Of a stretch of 64,000 nt of DNA, positions 18,524 through 49,392 are shown in pieces (position 1 is the first letter of the stretch; every line of letters begins with the position of its first letter). Location of the stretch: the NCBI RefSeq assembly GCF_000317895.1, contig NC_019567.1:1426001-1490000 (forward strand), written 5' to 3'. The notes under the pieces are model-generated. The model did no database searches. It saw nothing but the letters and a program-made list of their open reading frames with translations, and was not told the origin of the DNA. This DNA is from Bdellovibrio bacteriovorus str. Tiberius. GTDB lineage: Bacteria > Bdellovibrionota > Bdellovibrionia > Bdellovibrionales > Bdellovibrionaceae. The position numbers and the translations under genes were made by a program.

Positions 18524-19138
18524 ATGATCCAGCAACGAAAACGCAAAACCAAAGACCCTTGCCCTGAATGTTTCCTGCACCGGGATTTGTGCCTTTGCAG
18601 TTTGATACCTCAACTGGAATCCCGCACCCGTTTGTGTCTGGTGATTCACGCCAAAGAACTAAAGCGCACCACTAACACCGGTCGTCTGGCGATCAAGTCT
18701 TTGCTTAACAGCGAGATGCGTGTGCGCGGAGACAGTCAGGAGGCTTTGGACCTTTCTGATTTGCTGGTGCCTGAATACCGCACGGTTTTGTTTTTCCCCG
18801 CGGAAGATGCGCGCGAACTGAATGCCGAATTTATGGCCGAAGACCCGCGTCCTTTGCAATTGATTGTGCCGGATGGGAACTGGCGCCAGGCCAGCAAGGT
18901 CAACACCCGCCATCCTGAAATTGCCGGGATTCCGCGAGTGATGATCAGTGCGCCCAATAAATCCCAGCACCACTTGCGGGCGGAAACGACCGAAGAAGGT
19001 ATGGCGACTTTGCAGGCGATTGCGCAGGCTTTTTTGGTGGCGGAAGGCCCCGCAGTCGGTGGGGCCCTGATGGAATTATATCAGGAAAAATTAAAAAGAA
19101 CCTTGATGGGACGGGGAGTTCTGCCGAAGCCGACTTAG
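18524..19138 (+). CDS. DTW-domain tRNA-uridine aminocarboxypropyltransferase family protein
   Basis: A protein of about 204 residues. The N-terminus has the zinc-like cluster CPECFLHRDLCLC, followed by TRLCLVIHAKELKRTTNTGRLA, FPAEDARELN and the signature PDGNWRQASK, where the family's D-T-W reads D-G-N-W. Members such as TapT add the 3-amino-3-carboxypropyl group of SAM to uridine in tRNA. I use the ATG at 18524 because GGGTGAGG sits just upstream. The stop overlaps the convergent halogenase gene by four bases. Confidence 0.85.
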   Translation: MIQQRKRKTKDPCPECFLHRDLCLCSLIPQLESRTRLCLVIHAKELKRTTNTGRLAIKSLLNSEMRVRGDSQEALDLSDLLVPEYRTVLFFPAEDARELNAEFMAEDPRPLQLIVPDGNWRQASKVNTRHPEIAGIPRVMISAPNKSQHHLRAETTEEGMATLQAIAQAFLVAEGPAVGGALMELYQEKLKRTLMGRGVLPKPT

Positions 19139-20736
19139 ACGTCGGCTTCCATGATCCAGGTGTCAGTGTCATTGAAGAGCTGCTCCAGGATCTCATCTTC
19201 AAACAGATGATCCCCTTTGAACAATTCAAACAGTGACAGGGAACGGCTGGTCAATTCTTGATAGGACTTCAGTTTGCCGAAGTATTCTTCCTTGCTCATT
19301 TCCGGTGCGGCCAGAGGTTTGTGAACTTCTTTTTGTCCGAAAATCAAAGTGTCATAACTGTAGCTGTTAAAGACCAGTGCCTCTGTCGCCGTGAACTGAG
19401 AGTTGGATCCAAAGTTCCCTGCGCTTAGAGGTGGTCTTTGATTGAACAGGTCCATGATGGTTTGTGCGTGTCCGATGTTGGTCTTTTCACGGCAGTGCTT
19501 CCAGAACGGAGTGTCCAGTTTCTTGTTGAACTTATAGTGCATGCCCACAAACCAGCGGAAAGTGTCCCACGTCACCGCGATTTCATTGTTGATACCCGAG
19601 ATGGAAATCTGATCGTCCAGGGTTTTAGGCATCAAACGGCACAAAACATTGATGCTGTGAACAGCCGTCTGAATGGCAGTGGATTCCAAAGGCTCAATAA
19701 ACCCGTAAGAGTTCCCCAAAGAAAACACGTTTTTCACCCAGGCTTGAGTATGACGACCCGAACGGAATTCAACCATTTTGTATTTTTCAAAATGACCGAA
19801 GCGGGCGCGGGCTTCAGCCAAAGCAGTTTCCTCGTCACAGAACTTGGACGAGAACACATAACCATAGTGGTCTTCAGTGCGCATCGGGATCTTCCAGCAC
19901 CAGCCATTGTTCATGGTAATCACAGATGTGTAGCAATCCACGACATCTTTGTTGGGCAGATCAAAGGTCAGTGCGCGGTCCGTGACCAAAGTGTCTGTGA
20001 ACGGTGTGAATTCCGTTTTTAGCGCCTGACCCAGAATCTTGGAGCGGAAGCCAGAGCAGTCGATGTACAGATCATAGGAAAGACTGTGACCTTCCTTTGA
20101 TTCCAAAGATGCCACATACCCACGGTCATCCAGTTTCACTTCGTGAACTTCGGCATCCAGAATGTCAATGCCGCGGCTTTTGACCTCCTTGTTCAGGAAG
20201 CGGATCAGGTTCTTGTTGTCGATGTGGTAGGAAAACGGAATGCTTGCCAGGAATGAAGTCAAAGTTCCGTTTTTGTTGCGAATGATCGGAATTTTATTTT
20301 CATTCATCAACACCGATGGCCAGTTGGAATTCTTGATGTCGTTTTCATAGTAGTAGGACTCGTACTGGTGTCCGGCAAAGAAGCTGAAATTGAATTTGTA
20401 ATCACCCGGGCAGCCCCAGTCAAAACGAATACCGAACTTCAACGTCGGCTGGACTTCACGGAAGAAATCCGCCGGGTCGATCTCAAGGCCGCGGTGCAGG
20501 AACGGCACGATCTCGGTGGTGGTGGATTCGCCGACGCCGATGACTGGAATTTTGCTGGACTCAATAACGGTGACTTCAACTTCGGGGTGATACTTTTTAA
20601 GCGCCAGGGCTGCGAGATATCCGGCGGTGCCGCCACCTAAAATGCCGATGGTTTTGATGTCCGTCGGCGGGCATTTTGGAAAGTTCAAATAGCTTAAATC
20701 AAAGGCATTGTCGATATGGTCAGAAAGTGTGTTCAT
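19135..20736 (-). CDS. Flavin-dependent tryptophan-halogenase-type enzyme
   Basis: A 533-residue FAD protein with the GxGxxG-type nucleotide motif GILGGGTAGY (31-40) and the flavin loop GVGESTT (67-73). The diagnostic halogenase residues are present: Lys100 in PTLKFGIRF (equivalent to the HOCl-tunnel lysine), the WxWxIP motif at 279-284 (WCWKIP) and Glu351-Ser352 in EPLEST. Such enzymes chlorinate or brominate an aromatic substrate using reduced FAD, oxygen and halide. No flavin reductase, NRPS or other biosynthetic gene is nearby, so the substrate is unknown. The next gene upstream is divergent. Confidence 0.9.
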   Translation of the reverse strand: MNTLSDHIDNAFDLSYLNFPKCPPTDIKTIGILGGGTAGYLAALALKKYHPEVEVTVIESSKIPVIGVGESTTTEIVPFLHRGLEIDPADFFREVQPTLKFGIRFDWGCPGDYKFNFSFFAGHQYESYYYENDIKNSNWPSVLMNENKIPIIRNKNGTLTSFLASIPFSYHIDNKNLIRFLNKEVKSRGIDILDAEVHEVKLDDRGYVASLESKEGHSLSYDLYIDCSGFRSKILGQALKTEFTPFTDTLVTDRALTFDLPNKDVVDCYTSVITMNNGWCWKIPMRTEDHYGYVFSSKFCDEETALAEARARFGHFEKYKMVEFRSGRHTQAWVKNVFSLGNSYGFIEPLESTAIQTAVHSINVLCRLMPKTLDDQISISGINNEIAVTWDTFRWFVGMHYKFNKKLDTPFWKHCREKTNIGHAQTIMDLFNQRPPLSAGNFGSNSQFTATEALVFNSYSYDTLIFGQKEVHKPLAAPEMSKEEYFGKLKSYQELTSRSLSLFELFKGDHLFEDEILEQLFNDTDTWIMEADV

Positions 20737-25026: not shown

Positions 25027-27123
25027 CTAAAGATTCGTCTGCAGTGTCAAAAAGACGCTGCGGACTTCCCCTGGGTACAGATAGATGTGCCCATACTGAG
25101 TCGGGGATTCCTTCCAGTATTTTCCGTCCGTCAGATTTTCAACAGCCAGGCGCACGACGGTTTTTTCATCTTTCTTCCCAAATTCATAAGAAGCTCCCGC
25201 ATCCCAACGGGTCCATGCTGACAGCATCATGGAATTATCCGCAGTCACCGCACGCTCACCTTCATAGGAAATGCGCGAATTCACTGACAAGCCCTGAAGG
25301 CCCGGGATCAGATAACTCACATGGGCACGGAAAGTATGCTCAGGCAGATTCGTTGGACGCTGGTCATTGACGGCGGCATTCAAAGTGCTGTCCAGGCGAC
25401 GAGCCTTCAGCCACATTGCTGATGCTGTCCATTGCAGACGTCCTGCTTCACCACCCAGTTCTGCCTCAACGCCCTGATGGCGGCTGAGGCCGTCAATTTT
25501 ATAGTCCGGTCTTTGATCCTCCACCTGAGGTCGTTCAATTTGGAAGGCCGCAAGATTCCAAGTGACAGCTTCACCACCGCGCACACCGACTTCGATTTGT
25601 TTGCTGATCACGTCCGGAACAAATTGTCCGGGGTTTGTGTAGCCACTGCGGTTCGGGGTGACATAGGTTTCAACACCTTCACCATAGCTGACATAGGTCA
25701 TCCAAGTCGGGAATTGGTAAGAAAGGGCCATCCACGGCAACACAAAGTTTTCGCGATAATCGGTGGCTCGGGACGCATCGGTGCGAACACTGCTGCGATG
25801 AACATCACTGAAGCGAAGCCCCAGCCACGCACCCCAAGGCCCAAATTTGGCGGAATCAAAGGCAAACAGTTCGTTCACTTCAGAATCTCTGTTGGTATTT
25901 TCATCTGTCAGGGCAGGATCTGCCGGAAGCTTCGCCGTGCCCTGCACATTGCCCGCACCCACTGGGTTGTAAGCCTGTTTGTCATAGCGTTCACGGGATA
26001 CATGTCCCAGATATCCGATATTGATGTCGTGGGAAACAGACCATGTTTCCGCTTTGATTTGCAGGGAGGTCTTGACGGCCTGAGTGCTGCGGCGTTCGTT
26101 TTCACTTCGGAAGTCGTACATGTCGAAAGTGCCGTCAGAACAATAGCGGTCATAATTGTTTTCAGCCGAGCAGCCAAACGGGTATGCCAGACGGTCGTCG
26201 GTGTGCAGTTCTTGTGCGCCCGCGGCAGTATGCCAGATCAGATTCTGGTTAAATCGGTGAGTGTACTTCAAGCTGCCGGTCAGACCGGTGAAAACCACCG
26301 GCTGGGACCAGCTTTGATTGTTCAGGTTCAAGCGCGGATCAGATGCAGATGGCAGATCATTGCCCAAAAGACTGAACGCCGCTTGGGTCGGCTGGGATTT
26401 TTTGGACCATTCGATGTCTGACTCAAATAATTGACCTTCGGAAATGCGCCAGCTGTTGGCCAAAGCCAGGACACTTCGTTCACCTTTGCTGTCTTCCACT
26501 GCGGGGCTTAAGTTTTCATGGGCCACATTCAGGCGATAACCGAACTGTTCATAGCCTTTGACCGGGCCAGCGGCATCGGCGGCGATCAGCCAGTCCCCAT
26601 AACTTCCAACTTCGGTTTCAAGCAGCAGTTGGTGACGCGCAGTCGGGCGTTTGACGACATAATTGACCATGCCTCCGGGCGAGCTTGCACCGGTCTGCAG
26701 GCCATTCAGTCCTTTCAGCACCTCAAGACGCTCTTTGTTTTCCAAAGGAATGGATGTTTGCGTATTGATCGGCAGGCCTTCACGCAGGAAGTTTGCGCGA
26801 TTGTCCAGGGTAAACCCGCGAATGGACAGATAGTCCCAGTATCCCGAAGCGTTGTAGCTGTCGGTGACGGACGCTTCAATGAGAGTGATATCAGACAGAC
26901 GGTGAATGCGGTTTTCACGCAAAGTCTTGTCACTGATTTGGGAGGAAGAAAGCGGCAGATTTTGTGCGGGAACATCGGGGAAACCAAAAGCCTCCAGAGG
27001 TTCCTGAACCTGATCATCCTGAACAGTGATGGTGTTGATCTCGGTCGGTGCGTTTTGTGCGTGCAGACCCTGGCTGGTCAGCAGAGCTGTCATGGCAGTG
27101 AGGATTGATACGTGCTTTTTCAT
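25027..27123 (-). CDS. TonB-dependent outer-membrane receptor under thiamin (TPP) control
   Basis: A 698-residue outer membrane receptor. After the signal peptide (MKKHVSILTAMTALLTSQGLHA) there is a TonB box region (INTITV), a plug domain (SDKTLRENRIHRLSDITLIE, SIRGF, ERLEVLKGLNGLQTGASSPGGMVNYVVKRP) and a strand-rich barrel ending in VRSVFLTLQTNL. The sequence resembles siderophore receptors, but a TPP riboswitch lies in its leader, so the substrate is more probably thiamin, a precursor or a phosphate ester. The ATG at 27123 has AAAGGAAGG before it; upstream in-frame codons belong to the leader. No thiamin transporter gene is adjacent. Confidence 0.9.
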   Translation of the reverse strand: MKKHVSILTAMTALLTSQGLHAQNAPTEINTITVQDDQVQEPLEAFGFPDVPAQNLPLSSSQISDKTLRENRIHRLSDITLIEASVTDSYNASGYWDYLSIRGFTLDNRANFLREGLPINTQTSIPLENKERLEVLKGLNGLQTGASSPGGMVNYVVKRPTARHQLLLETEVGSYGDWLIAADAAGPVKGYEQFGYRLNVAHENLSPAVEDSKGERSVLALANSWRISEGQLFESDIEWSKKSQPTQAAFSLLGNDLPSASDPRLNLNNQSWSQPVVFTGLTGSLKYTHRFNQNLIWHTAAGAQELHTDDRLAYPFGCSAENNYDRYCSDGTFDMYDFRSENERRSTQAVKTSLQIKAETWSVSHDINIGYLGHVSRERYDKQAYNPVGAGNVQGTAKLPADPALTDENTNRDSEVNELFAFDSAKFGPWGAWLGLRFSDVHRSSVRTDASRATDYRENFVLPWMALSYQFPTWMTYVSYGEGVETYVTPNRSGYTNPGQFVPDVISKQIEVGVRGGEAVTWNLAAFQIERPQVEDQRPDYKIDGLSRHQGVEAELGGEAGRLQWTASAMWLKARRLDSTLNAAVNDQRPTNLPEHTFRAHVSYLIPGLQGLSVNSRISYEGERAVTADNSMMLSAWTRWDAGASYEFGKKDEKTVVRLAVENLTDGKYWKESPTQYGHIYLYPGEVRSVFLTLQTNL

Positions 27124-27187
27124 AGCCTTCCTTTGGCAGGTCGGCAGGATAGAAAGGGGCCTTTTGGGGATGGGCCGGTTCTTTCTG

Positions 27188-27280
27188 TTCTTGCTTCCCT
27201 GCGCGAGCATTATCTCTATCAGGTTCAAAGGGTTATTCTCAGTCGGTGAATTCACCAACACCCCTAGCGTCAGGTCAGCG
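27188..27280 (-). ncRNA. TPP riboswitch (THI box)
   Basis: Read on the minus strand, the region has the conserved THI-box blocks in order: GGGGTG (27259-27264), a P3 hairpin GGTGAATTCACC, CTGAGA (27237-27242), ACCC then TTTGAACCTGAT (27218-27229), GATAATGC, and GCGCAGGGAAGC (27193-27204). It ends about 65 bases before the receptor ATG. In that interval CCTTT could pair with AAAGG of the ribosome binding site, suggesting control of translation initiation by thiamin pyrophosphate. Confidence 0.93.
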
Positions 27281-27389
27281 TTATGATTGAGGAGTCCGCC
27301 CAGGTCAAATTCTTTTTGGAAACAGCGGAGGTCGGGCGTTATTTTCATTAATTCCGTTTATTTCCACGAACCCATGCTAAGCTTTATAT

Positions 27390-28490
27390 ATGAATATAAA
27401 TCAAACCCTGCTTCGCGAGTTCGTTATCAAGGGATTGGTCTCTTATAAAAAAGAATTGCGCGGGCCTTTCTTGCAGGATTTTCGGCAGCAGTTTGCCAGC
27501 CTGAATCCGGAAGAAGTGGCCGAGGCTTTTATTGACGTCACCTTTCTGGGATCCGCTTTGACCTTTCTGCAAGGGGAGCAGTGGAATCTGAAAAAGGATC
27601 CGGCCACCAGTTCCGAGAACTATCATCGCTTCACAGAACAGACCTTTGCCTCCAATCTTTTGTCTTTGAACTATCTGCAGGACACTCTGCAAAACATGAA
27701 TGAAAAGGAACTGCGCCGAACGGCCGAGCTTTGCGAAGAGCTGGAGCGTCTGTTGTTGTCCCACGTTCAGTCAGGAAACCAAGAACATCAAAACCGCTTT
27801 GTGGCCAGATCCCTGCAGTTGATGGAAAATGTCTTTGCTCATGAAAACGCACTTTCATTGCAGGGAAATACGCAGGCGCGGTCCCTGGCGCTTTCTCTGT
27901 ATCGCACATTCGATGGCCTGGATCAGATCTTTGGTTTGAACTATAACGCCGATGTGGGAATGAAGACGGACGTGAACGGCACCGAAAGACTGTATGAAGG
28001 CGCGGGCCTGGGTGTGCAGTCTTCGTATTCAACTTTGCTGACGGCTTTGCGGGAAGTGCGGGCATCACAAGGAATACGTTTTATTGATCTGGGATCTGGT
28101 TATGGACGGGTGGGTCTGGTTGTAGGCGTGTTAAGGCCGGATATTGATTTTATCGGATACGAGTACGTCAAACACCGCGTGGATATTTCCAATGAATCCA
28201 CGGCCAAATTCGGTTTGCAGGATCACGTGCACTTTTTCACGCAGGATCTTTCCGAAAAAGACTTCCGCATCCCCGATGCCGAGGTCTACTACATGTTTGA
28301 TCCGTTCAGCAAGGACACCTATCAGCATGTCTTGAGTCAATTGGTAGAAGTTTCGCGCCGTCAAAGAATTGTCGTGGTCACCAAGGGCAACGCGCGACTG
28401 TGGCTGAAAGAAATCGCCGAACGCGAAGGCTGGTTGCCGGGTCAGGAATTTGACTGCGGCAATCTGTCATTGTTCCGTTCGCGCGAATAG
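27390..28490 (+). CDS. SAM-dependent class I methyltransferase
   Basis: A 366-residue protein. The N-terminal half is helical and unfamiliar. Residues about 210-365 form a Rossmann methyltransferase domain: motif I FIDLGSGYGRVGL, the acidic end of strand 2 in FIGYEY, DHVHFFTQDL and AEVYYMFDPFS. The substrate cannot be told from sequence. The ribosome binding site is weak. Its stop codon abuts that of the convergent dbpA gene with no base between. Confidence 0.82.
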   Translation: MNINQTLLREFVIKGLVSYKKELRGPFLQDFRQQFASLNPEEVAEAFIDVTFLGSALTFLQGEQWNLKKDPATSSENYHRFTEQTFASNLLSLNYLQDTLQNMNEKELRRTAELCEELERLLLSHVQSGNQEHQNRFVARSLQLMENVFAHENALSLQGNTQARSLALSLYRTFDGLDQIFGLNYNADVGMKTDVNGTERLYEGAGLGVQSSYSTLLTALREVRASQGIRFIDLGSGYGRVGLVVGVLRPDIDFIGYEYVKHRVDISNESTAKFGLQDHVHFFTQDLSEKDFRIPDAEVYYMFDPFSKDTYQHVLSQLVEVSRRQRIVVVTKGNARLWLKEIAEREGWLPGQEFDCGNLSLFRSRE

Positions 28491-48351: not shown

Positions 48352-49392
48352 AGTTTTAATTTCTGTCCAAGAGTCTTCGAAGAGCTTGTTTTTCTCGCCT
48401 TGGTCCTGGATTCGTTCTAGTTTTTTTAGAGTCGCTTCATCCGGGAACAGTGCGCTGTTGTTTTGCATTTCTTTTGGCAGGGATGCTTTGGTGTTTTTCA
48501 GGACAGGACCGCCCAAGATTGTTTTTACTCGGTTGATTTCTGCCTGTTCACTTAGCAGGAAGTTGATCAGCTTGTGGGCGGCTTCGGGGTGTTTGGCGCC
48601 TTTGATGATGACCAGGTTGTCGATGGTGAAGGTTCCGCCTTCGGTAGGGATGATGTATTCGATTTTGCCTGGGGACTTGTCTGCGGCTTGAAGGGCGTCC
48701 GAGGAATAGGTCTGGGCGGCAGCGACTTCCTTGTTGTTCAGGATGTCGATGGTGTCAGAGGCGAACATTTTTACGTTCTTTTTTGCCTTCAGCAGTGTGT
48801 CTTTGGCTTTTTTGATTTCTTCAGGGTTGGTGCTGTTCACGCTGAAGCCGTTCATTTTCAGGGCGGCGCCCAGGGTTTCGCGCACGTCATCCAAAAGGGC
48901 GAATTTGCCTTTCAGCTGTGGGTTTTCCAGAAGATCTTTCCAGCTTTTGATCGGGCCTTTGTAAAGATCGCGGTTCACGGCGATACCCGCAGTTGTCCAG
49001 ATGTACGGTAACGAAAACTTGTTCTCGGGATCGTAGTTCTGTTTCAGGAACTGAGGATCAATCAGGGTTTTGTTTGAAATCTGATCTTGCTTCAGTGTTT
49101 CCAGCAGATTCATTTTGGACATGACTTCAACCATATAGTCGGAAGGCACGGCCACGTCGATGCCGGAAGACCCCATCTGAACTTTTGCCAGCAGTTCTTC
49201 ATTCGAGGAATAGTTGGAGATATTGATCTTGATGCCGGTTTCTTTCTCGAACTGAGCCTGCAGTTCCGGGGAAAGATAGTTGCCCCAGATGGACAGGTTG
49301 ACTTCTTTGGCTTCAGAAACTTCAGCAGACTTTTTTGTACATCCCGCCAGCAACCCACAAAGAGCCAGGCCGGCCATCAATATTCTCGACAT
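48346..49392 (-). CDS. potD: Polyamine ABC transporter binding lipoprotein, PotD-like
   Basis: A 348-residue lipoprotein (LLAGC, Cys18) of the spermidine/putrescine-binding family: VNLSIWGNYLSPELQAQFEKETG, GIDVAVPSDYMVEVM, LPYIWTTAGIAVNRD and GTFTIDNLVIIKGAKHPEAAHKLINFLL. It should capture polyamines for the PotABC transporter next door. Unusually the gene is inverted relative to potABC, with only 29 bases between the two start codons. AAGGA precedes its ATG. The stop codon is inside palindromic repeat II. Confidence 0.92.
   Translation of the reverse strand: MSRILMAGLALCGLLAGCTKKSAEVSEAKEVNLSIWGNYLSPELQAQFEKETGIKINISNYSSNEELLAKVQMGSSGIDVAVPSDYMVEVMSKMNLLETLKQDQISNKTLIDPQFLKQNYDPENKFSLPYIWTTAGIAVNRDLYKGPIKSWKDLLENPQLKGKFALLDDVRETLGAALKMNGFSVNSTNPEEIKKAKDTLLKAKKNVKMFASDTIDILNNKEVAAAQTYSSDALQAADKSPGKIEYIIPTEGGTFTIDNLVIIKGAKHPEAAHKLINFLLSEQAEINRVKTILGGPVLKNTKASLPKEMQNNSALFPDEATLKKLERIQDQGEKNKLFEDSWTEIKTH

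Follow-up and report, generated by a model that had tools for sequence, protein, structure and literature searches.

Why should a gene for an apparent siderophore receptor lie behind a riboswitch that senses vitamin B1? The question is raised by a locus in a 64,000-nucleotide (nt) stretch of Bdellovibrio bacteriovorus str. Tiberius DNA (contig NC_019567.1, positions 1,426,001 to 1,490,000; hereafter the window), where the gene for a TonB-dependent outer-membrane receptor, P0001, follows a thiamin pyrophosphate (TPP) riboswitch. A first-pass annotation, made from the letters alone, had read a full THI box in the leader and proposed that the receptor imports a thiamin compound from prey debris. 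Based on the riboswitch, its linkage to the receptor across genomes and the inventory of thiamin genes, we consider it very likely that P0001 is a TonB-dependent importer of thiamin compounds in the outer membrane, repressed by TPP and feeding a route through a ThiB-family importer and the kinase ThiL. If true, this accounts for the supply of an essential cofactor to a predatory bacterium whose B1 pathway is broken, assigns a substrate to what automatic annotation would label a siderophore receptor, and makes TonB-dependent import of a phosphorylated cofactor in intact form open to test. A predator gene that TPP represses could also serve as a native control switch, a kind of tool wanted in this organism.

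The TPP Riboswitch and Its Pairing with the Receptor

A cmscan search of the whole window returned a single Rfam match above threshold, a TPP element of family RF00059 in front of the receptor gene (Table 1). It scores 63.9 bits against a gathering cut-off of 54.3 (E value 3.2e-10) and covers model positions 1-105 of 105, a full-length match that bears out the THI box of the first-pass annotation. We aligned 17 aptamers, from 12 genomes of the genus, one Bdellovibrio metagenome-assembled genome (MAG) and four Burkholderiales. The named helices have standard pairs in 93.8% of the alignment cells, six of the eight P3 pairs have changes on both sides, and the CUGAGA and ACCUGA stretches are invariant; in 14 of the 17 aptamers the outer pair of P1 does not form. 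The covariation score is 0.300, compared with a mean of 0.112 for shuffled alignments (0/500 shuffles as high) and 0.037-0.092 when slid, and the number of doubly changed pairs, seven, is by itself not above shuffles (206/500). The riboswitch upstream of P0001 is real, which confirms the earlier observation. A search for further TPP-controlled genes, a check proposed with that observation, found exactly one TPP element at the search threshold in the 3.99 Mb Bdellovibrio genome, the one before P0001, and no second.

The same draw of 144 genomes of the phylum, 13 of them from the genus, was searched for TPP elements, the receptor, ThiC, thiamin pyrophosphokinase (TPK), PnuT, ThiL, ThiE and ThiB (genomes are denoted by G numbers and loci by L numbers). 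At an E value of 1e-50 or better the receptor occurs in 12 of the 144, all within the 13 of the genus, and in each of these 12 one TPP element stands directly before it; in the thirteenth genus genome, G061, neither element nor receptor was found. Within 1.5-kb flanks, the neighbours seen in the window, a trypsin-like and a methyltransferase gene, accompany the receptor in three of the 12 genomes, its own included, and a DEAD-box gene alone lies beside it in a fourth. Since the flanking genes differ while element and receptor stay together, the pair is kept independently of its neighbourhood.

One scan of named genomes yielded at least six further relatives, namely the Bdellovibrio MAG (55% identical) and, at 42-46% identity, five Burkholderiales loci. 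The scan depends on short near-exact peptide matches, so additional relatives may exist. All six have a TPP element, five of them over cut-off; the element of the sixth (L005, 3443-3582), which has an extra hairpin, was seen in a permissive search and is below cut-off (34.5 bits, E value 1.2e-4). The pair is present in all 18 family members found, spanning Bdellovibrio and Burkholderiales. Its retention in 12/13 genus genomes and 6/6 relatives, with differing neighbours, supports the proposal that the receptor imports a thiamin compound, and the predator context of that proposal fits a family whose closest named relative is the Bdellovibrio MAG. Among the genomes of the relatives, those with L003, L004 and L007 have two TPP elements each and those with L002 and L006 one each. 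By Pfam, the second elements L155 and L158 precede ThiC, and the third, L153, was read by eye alone; second TPP elements before ThiC suggest that thiamin makers also use a P0001-type receptor, as a salvage gate. The tree of receptors lacks resolution at the base of the P0001 family and gives no direction to a transfer between Bdellovibrio and the Burkholderiales.

The Leader and Its Mode of Control

The receptor start was assigned to the ATG at 27123, which is preceded by the Shine-Dalgarno-like sequence AAAGGAAGG. The ATG at 27348, offered by the open reading frame (ORF) tool, was rejected because it lies upstream of the aptamer and its frame passes through it. The linker between aptamer and start codon is our proposed expression platform. 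A consensus scan of its minus strand found no terminator-like site, which leaves a terminator-type platform unsupported, and no sigma-70-like promoter was found by consensus scan in 27000-27500. Folding predicts a hairpin over the ribosome site and an alternative pairing of its 5′ side with the 3′ strand of the aptamer; compared with shuffles, the hairpin (p 0.132) and the duplex (p 0.246) are weak alone.

The comparison across the genus adds to this picture. Nine of the 12 genus leaders have an aptamer-to-start spacing of 30-66 nt together with a predicted hairpin over at least part of the Shine-Dalgarno sequence, and in eight of these nine the best duplex between the linker and the aptamer 3′ strand overlaps, in our reading, the 5′ arm of the predicted hairpin. 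G000, G065 and G069, three of these nine, are closely related, and the statistics are uneven, with p from 0.002 to 0.67 for the hairpin and from 0.018 to 0.36 for the duplex. As modeled, the spaced leaders have the layout of a translational off-switch, and P0001 is probably turned off by TPP via a concealed ribosome site. The other three leaders (G057, G083, G139) and that of the Bdellovibrio MAG have the start codon within the aptamer tail, where the aptamer can mask it directly. That the genus has two leader arrangements for this gene suggests that the expression platform changes faster than the aptamer.

Inner-Membrane Import, Thiamin Enzymes and the Substrate

All 13 genus genomes encode a ThiB-family protein that passes TIGR01254, a model of a wider thiamin-binding subfamily (cut-off 93.4). 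The binding protein of the window's genome scores 207.9 bits, its best solved match is the Escherichia coli thiamin-binding protein 2qry (8.3e-51), and its gene is the first of an operon of binding protein, permease and ATPase that lies behind endonuclease III and DoxX genes. Orthologous-looking operons with endonuclease III, DoxX and importer genes in G053 and G133 carry a TPP riboswitch before the binding protein, as does the DoxX and transporter arrangement of G029, which speaks for a thiamin substrate; the whole-genome search found no TPP element at the operon of the window's genome. Thiamin control in Bdellovibrio seems to sit at the outer membrane, not at the importer operon. A weak TIGR01254 match inside the window (48481-49275, minus strand; genome 1474481-1475275; 28.9 bits) is another solute-binding protein.

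ThiC and the PnuT family were found in none of the 13 genus genomes, and neither was TPK by Pfam. A profile of 12 phylum TPKs, which recovered all eight Pfam-positive control genomes outside the profile, plus G114, overlooked by Pfam, gave no match at 1e-3 in the 13 and a single one, at E 0.045, in G080. No homologue of E. coli ThiK was detected in the window's genome, and weak partial matches occur in 4/13 (best E 0.0018, G080). ThiE over cut-off is absent from the window's genome; all 13 have weak matches (E 2e-6 to 8e-4), and only G115 rises over the cut-off, with a partial match of 28.3 versus 27 bits. The 23.4-bit match in the window's genome was rejected as ThiE, being a protein of the nitronate monooxygenase family (PF03060, 4.7e-49). 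These absences refer to the enzymes searched (ThiC, ThiE, TPK, PnuT and E. coli-type ThiK); ThiD, ThiM and YjbQ were not searched for. Bdellovibrio of the window seems unable to make vitamin B1.

ThiL, the thiamin-monophosphate kinase, is over its equivalog cut-off in exactly the 12 genus genomes that have receptor and element. The protein of the window's genome matches the solved ThiL entries 1vqv (1.8e-42) and 3c9r (2.6e-42), which we take to be of the Aquifex type, and it aligns with them at GDD, SDGL and GGEDY, presumably the catalytic motifs. A PilZ-domain gene (L083 9123-9788; genome 964122-964787) overlaps the 3′ end of thiL, with a possible link to cyclic di-GMP.

Because ThiL and a ThiB-family importer are present and TPK, ThiC, ThiE, PnuT and ThiK were not found, thiamin monophosphate (TMP) or ready-made TPP is favored as the substrate. 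The enzyme inventory, in favoring thiamin phosphates over free thiamin, sharpens the first-pass proposal of a thiamin compound. We suggest tentatively that the true specificity of P0001 is for a phosphorylated thiamin compound, TMP and/or TPP. In Bacteroides thetaiotaomicron TPP predominates in the thiamin pool, with TMP at 9-14% and free thiamin at about 2-16%, according to the pool sizes reported for that organism (PMC5613172); since TPP is the main intracellular form, a predator in prey should meet mostly phosphorylated thiamin.

The following scheme is a proposal, in which we infer the substrate, its route, the binding of TPP and control at translation. At high cytosolic TPP the leader would bind it, the ribosome site would be hidden and little receptor would be made; a drop in TPP would allow the receptor to be produced. 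The substrate, most likely TMP and/or TPP released from prey, would pass through P0001 across the outer membrane to the ThiB-family periplasmic protein and on to its ATP-binding cassette (ABC) transporter. Imported TMP would then be converted to TPP by ThiL, the sole cytosolic step left among the enzymes searched, or TPP would be used directly. On an evolutionary scale, Bdellovibrio could have given up making and activating free thiamin and have come to harvest the prey's phosphorylated cofactor, with its TPP regulon shrunk to the P0001 gate, a scenario that we offer with reserve.

The chief rival to phosphorylated thiamin holds that P0001, as is presumed for OMthi of Bacteroides, imports free thiamin, which an unrecognised kinase converts to TMP for ThiL to finish. 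The OMthi receptor of Bacteroides, whose mutants, as reported, need more thiamin (PMC5613172), is a TonB receptor under TPP control, and four of the six genomes with the other TPP-controlled receptor lineage described below (G045, G071, G106, G114) have TPK, which acts on free thiamin; the failure to find TPK by Pfam or profile, or E. coli ThiK beyond weak partial matches, in the genomes and at the thresholds given above speaks against such a kinase and makes import of free thiamin a plausible but rather unlikely reading.

The Receptor Protein

P0001 has the Plug domain and the predicted 22-stranded barrel of a TonB-dependent receptor. The predicted structure is of modest quality, built from six sequences, with a mean predicted local distance difference test score (pLDDT) of 60.7 and values below 50 in the plug region; in Foldseek it matches TonB receptors. 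The closest solved relatives, by sequence and also by fold, include FemA (the enantio-pyochelin receptor), FoxA and FhuA. P0001 scores 235 bits with TIGR01783 (TonB-siderophor), a small margin over the cut-off of 223.5, so that the likeness to siderophore receptors noted in the first-pass annotation holds good, and it falls far below the cut-offs of the equivalog models of named siderophore receptors.

P0001 could, on these grounds, be an ordinary ferric-siderophore receptor that is under a TPP riboswitch for another reason. The nearest solved relatives and the TIGR01783 score just given speak for such a receptor, but the element-receptor pair is constant in all 18 family members found across Bdellovibrio and Burkholderiales, and the equivalogs of named siderophore receptors are not approached; we regard this alternative as improbable. 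P0001 shares fold and sequence family with receptors of the FhuA/FoxA/FemA type, which are named iron-chelate receptors, whereas its gene lies behind a TPP riboswitch. The available evidence supports the view that the label "siderophore receptor" reflects homology and that thiamin-compound importer is the best reading of the gene. Import of the precursor hydroxymethylpyrimidine (HMP), or of thiazole, for salvage synthesis is suggested by G104, a genome of the same family with a TPP element before ThiM, ThiE, ThiL, a ThiD-like gene and a CytX-type HMP transporter, but it is very improbable given that the window's genome has no ThiE over cut-off, its weak match being the nitronate monooxygenase family protein, and that G115 alone in the genus has even a partial ThiE just above it.

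Four observations weigh against P0001 as a TPP-repressed importer of thiamin compounds. First, the protein passes a siderophore-receptor subfamily model. Second, the accessibility of the Shine-Dalgarno sequence is nearly equal in free and aptamer-constrained folds in most of the 17 leaders folded. Third, the three importer proteins lie under the thiB, thiP and thiQ equivalog cut-offs (198.8 of 317.15, 48.9 of 395.1 and 113 of 245.05 bits, respectively), which makes the substrate of the importer uncertain; we therefore dropped the name ThiBPQ for "ThiB-family importer". Fourth, G061 is without element, receptor or over-cut-off ThiL, though it keeps the ThiB-family operon, so the system is dispensable in the genus. 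The idea that G061 cleanly lost receptor and ThiL together is weakened by a divergent ThiL-like protein (L161 1946-2968), which among NCBIfam models matches thiL best, at 115.3 bits against the cut-off of 184.15, and in which, in our reading, GDD is missing at the aligned place. A gene cluster of G121 (L164) holds proteins similar to it.

Across 17 aligned receptors, 111 positions are invariant. Within the barrel, 74 of 328 residues in the outer half and loops are invariant versus 14 of 204 in the inner half and turns (Fisher p 1e-6), a contrast assigned from the modest-quality model for a single receptor family without a control family. The most conserved block, DRLAYPFGC...DRYCSDGTFDMYDFRSENERR (residues 310-345), may face outward and is the first candidate for the ligand site.

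Table 1. Features of the P0001 locus and of associated genes (positions are those of the window unless a genome or locus is named)
Feature	Position	Strand	Basis
TPP riboswitch aptamer (THI element), complete	27275-27179	-	RF00059 match; covariation, 17 homologues
Linker from aptamer to start codon, 55 nt, proposed expression platform	27178-27124	-	Measured gap; folding and duplex tests; function inferred
Proposed hairpin over ribosome site	27145-27125	-	Predicted fold
Shine-Dalgarno-like sequence	27134-27126	-	Read from sequence
TonB-dependent outer-membrane receptor P0001, 698 amino acids + stop, proposed thiamin-compound importer	27123-25027	-	Plug, TIGR01783, fold relatives, riboswitch linkage
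Plug domain, residues 53-151	26967-26671	-	PF07715, E 9.4e-12
Most conserved loop region, residues 311-345, two cysteines, proposed outward-facing, candidate ligand site	26193-26089	-	17-receptor alignment; strand order in model
ThiB-family ABC importer (binding protein, permease, ATPase)	genome 576872-579976		TIGR01254, 2qry, operon order
Thiamin-monophosphate kinase ThiL	genome 964738-965670		Equivalog, 260.9 bits vs cut-off 184.15
Second-lineage receptors (also in G106, G114)	L089 5587-7623; L092 5623-7569; L093 7395-9461; L096 5688-7736		Directly behind TPP elements

Relation to Known Systems

TonB receptors under TPP control have precedents in Bacteroides (OMthi) and in Caldithrix (PMC5613172, PMC5317091). 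OMthi of B. thetaiotaomicron (BT2390) likewise is a TonB receptor behind a TPP riboswitch, and OMthi mutants are reported to show its role in thiamin-limited growth (PMC5613172); in Caldithrix abyssi a TPP element is likewise described before a TonB receptor (PMC5317091). The likeness between P0001 and OMthi refers to the TPP riboswitch on a TonB receptor gene, not to a sequence comparison with BT2390. Bacteroides pairs OMthi with PnuT and the pyrophosphorylating Tnr3 and, as described there, makes thiamin itself (PMC5613172), whereas our searches of Bdellovibrio found ThiL and a ThiB-family importer and neither PnuT nor TPK. Because the partners PnuT and TPK/Tnr3 were not found, we describe P0001 as like OMthi in working and do not class it as an OMthi system.

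A metabolic model of B. bacteriovorus has an incomplete thiamin pathway, and the available text of that report names no importer for thiamin (PMC7529429). The main text of a B. bacteriovorus transcriptome paper, as far as it was available, makes no mention of TPP, thiamin or TonB (PMC3627812), and in the open-licence literature no report of a TPP-controlled receptor in Bdellovibrio appeared by title or abstract among the matches listed. The novelty lies in the lineage of the receptor, its setting in a predator, a regulon of one gene and the inventory of ThiL without TPK; the kind of system is already known.

TPP Elements Elsewhere in the Phylum

TPP elements occur in 58 of the 144 phylum genomes (51 over cut-off), with 64 elements in total, 12 of them in the genus. 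The other 52 precede 20 sodium-symporter-like genes, 8 ThiB-like genes, 6 TonB receptors, 4 ThiM-like genes, 3 ThiC-like genes and 1 PnuT-like gene, and the genes downstream of the remaining 10 were left unclassed by BLAST against seeds. The 6 receptors and the 36 ThiB-, ThiM-, ThiC-, PnuT- and symporter-like genes count in favor of the thiamin reading of P0001.

The six TonB receptors form a second TPP-controlled lineage in other Bdellovibrionota families (G045, G071, G085, G106, G114, G118). Like P0001 they are encoded directly behind TPP elements, with the start codon mostly within the aptamer tail. Four of the six were compared; they share 25-48% identity with one another over nearly their full length and match P0001 in short stretches alone (best E 0.023). 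In the tree a long branch, flagged as unsafe by the program, separates the two TPP-controlled lineages. TPP control of TonB receptors probably arose or was acquired at least twice in the phylum. ThiL passes its cut-off in G085 and G118, in which no TPK was found; the reverse holds for G045, G071, G106 and G114, which have TPK but lack an over-cut-off ThiL. This split between ThiL and TPK fits a wider rule for TPP-controlled receptors.

Nine of the 10 unclassed genes were examined with Pfam, the tenth (G030) being excluded for its doubtful frame, and gave two ABC_cobalt permeases, one DUF2608 protein, one SBP_bac_5 protein and five without a family. The DUF2608 protein (L136 3795-4556, G040:C23), directly behind its riboswitch, presumably carries a HAD-phosphatase-like motif and is possibly a phosphatase that trims thiamin phosphates before uptake. 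The five ORFs without a Pfam match (L088 6607-7023, L110 1578-2738, L119 1605-2102, L144 4293-4655, L147 1597-1959), also directly behind TPP riboswitches, are candidates for novel thiamin genes. The ABC_cobalt family permeases (L142 1580-2173 and L146 3756-4346; G039 and G111) follow TPP riboswitches and, we assume, resemble the YkoE type of thiamin transporter. The SBP_bac_5 binding protein (L131 1575-3035, G113) follows a TPP-like element of 52.4 bits, below cut-off. Apart from these thiamin-related loci, the window itself encodes a tryptophan-halogenase family flavoprotein at 19135-20736 on the minus strand (PF04820, 5e-144).

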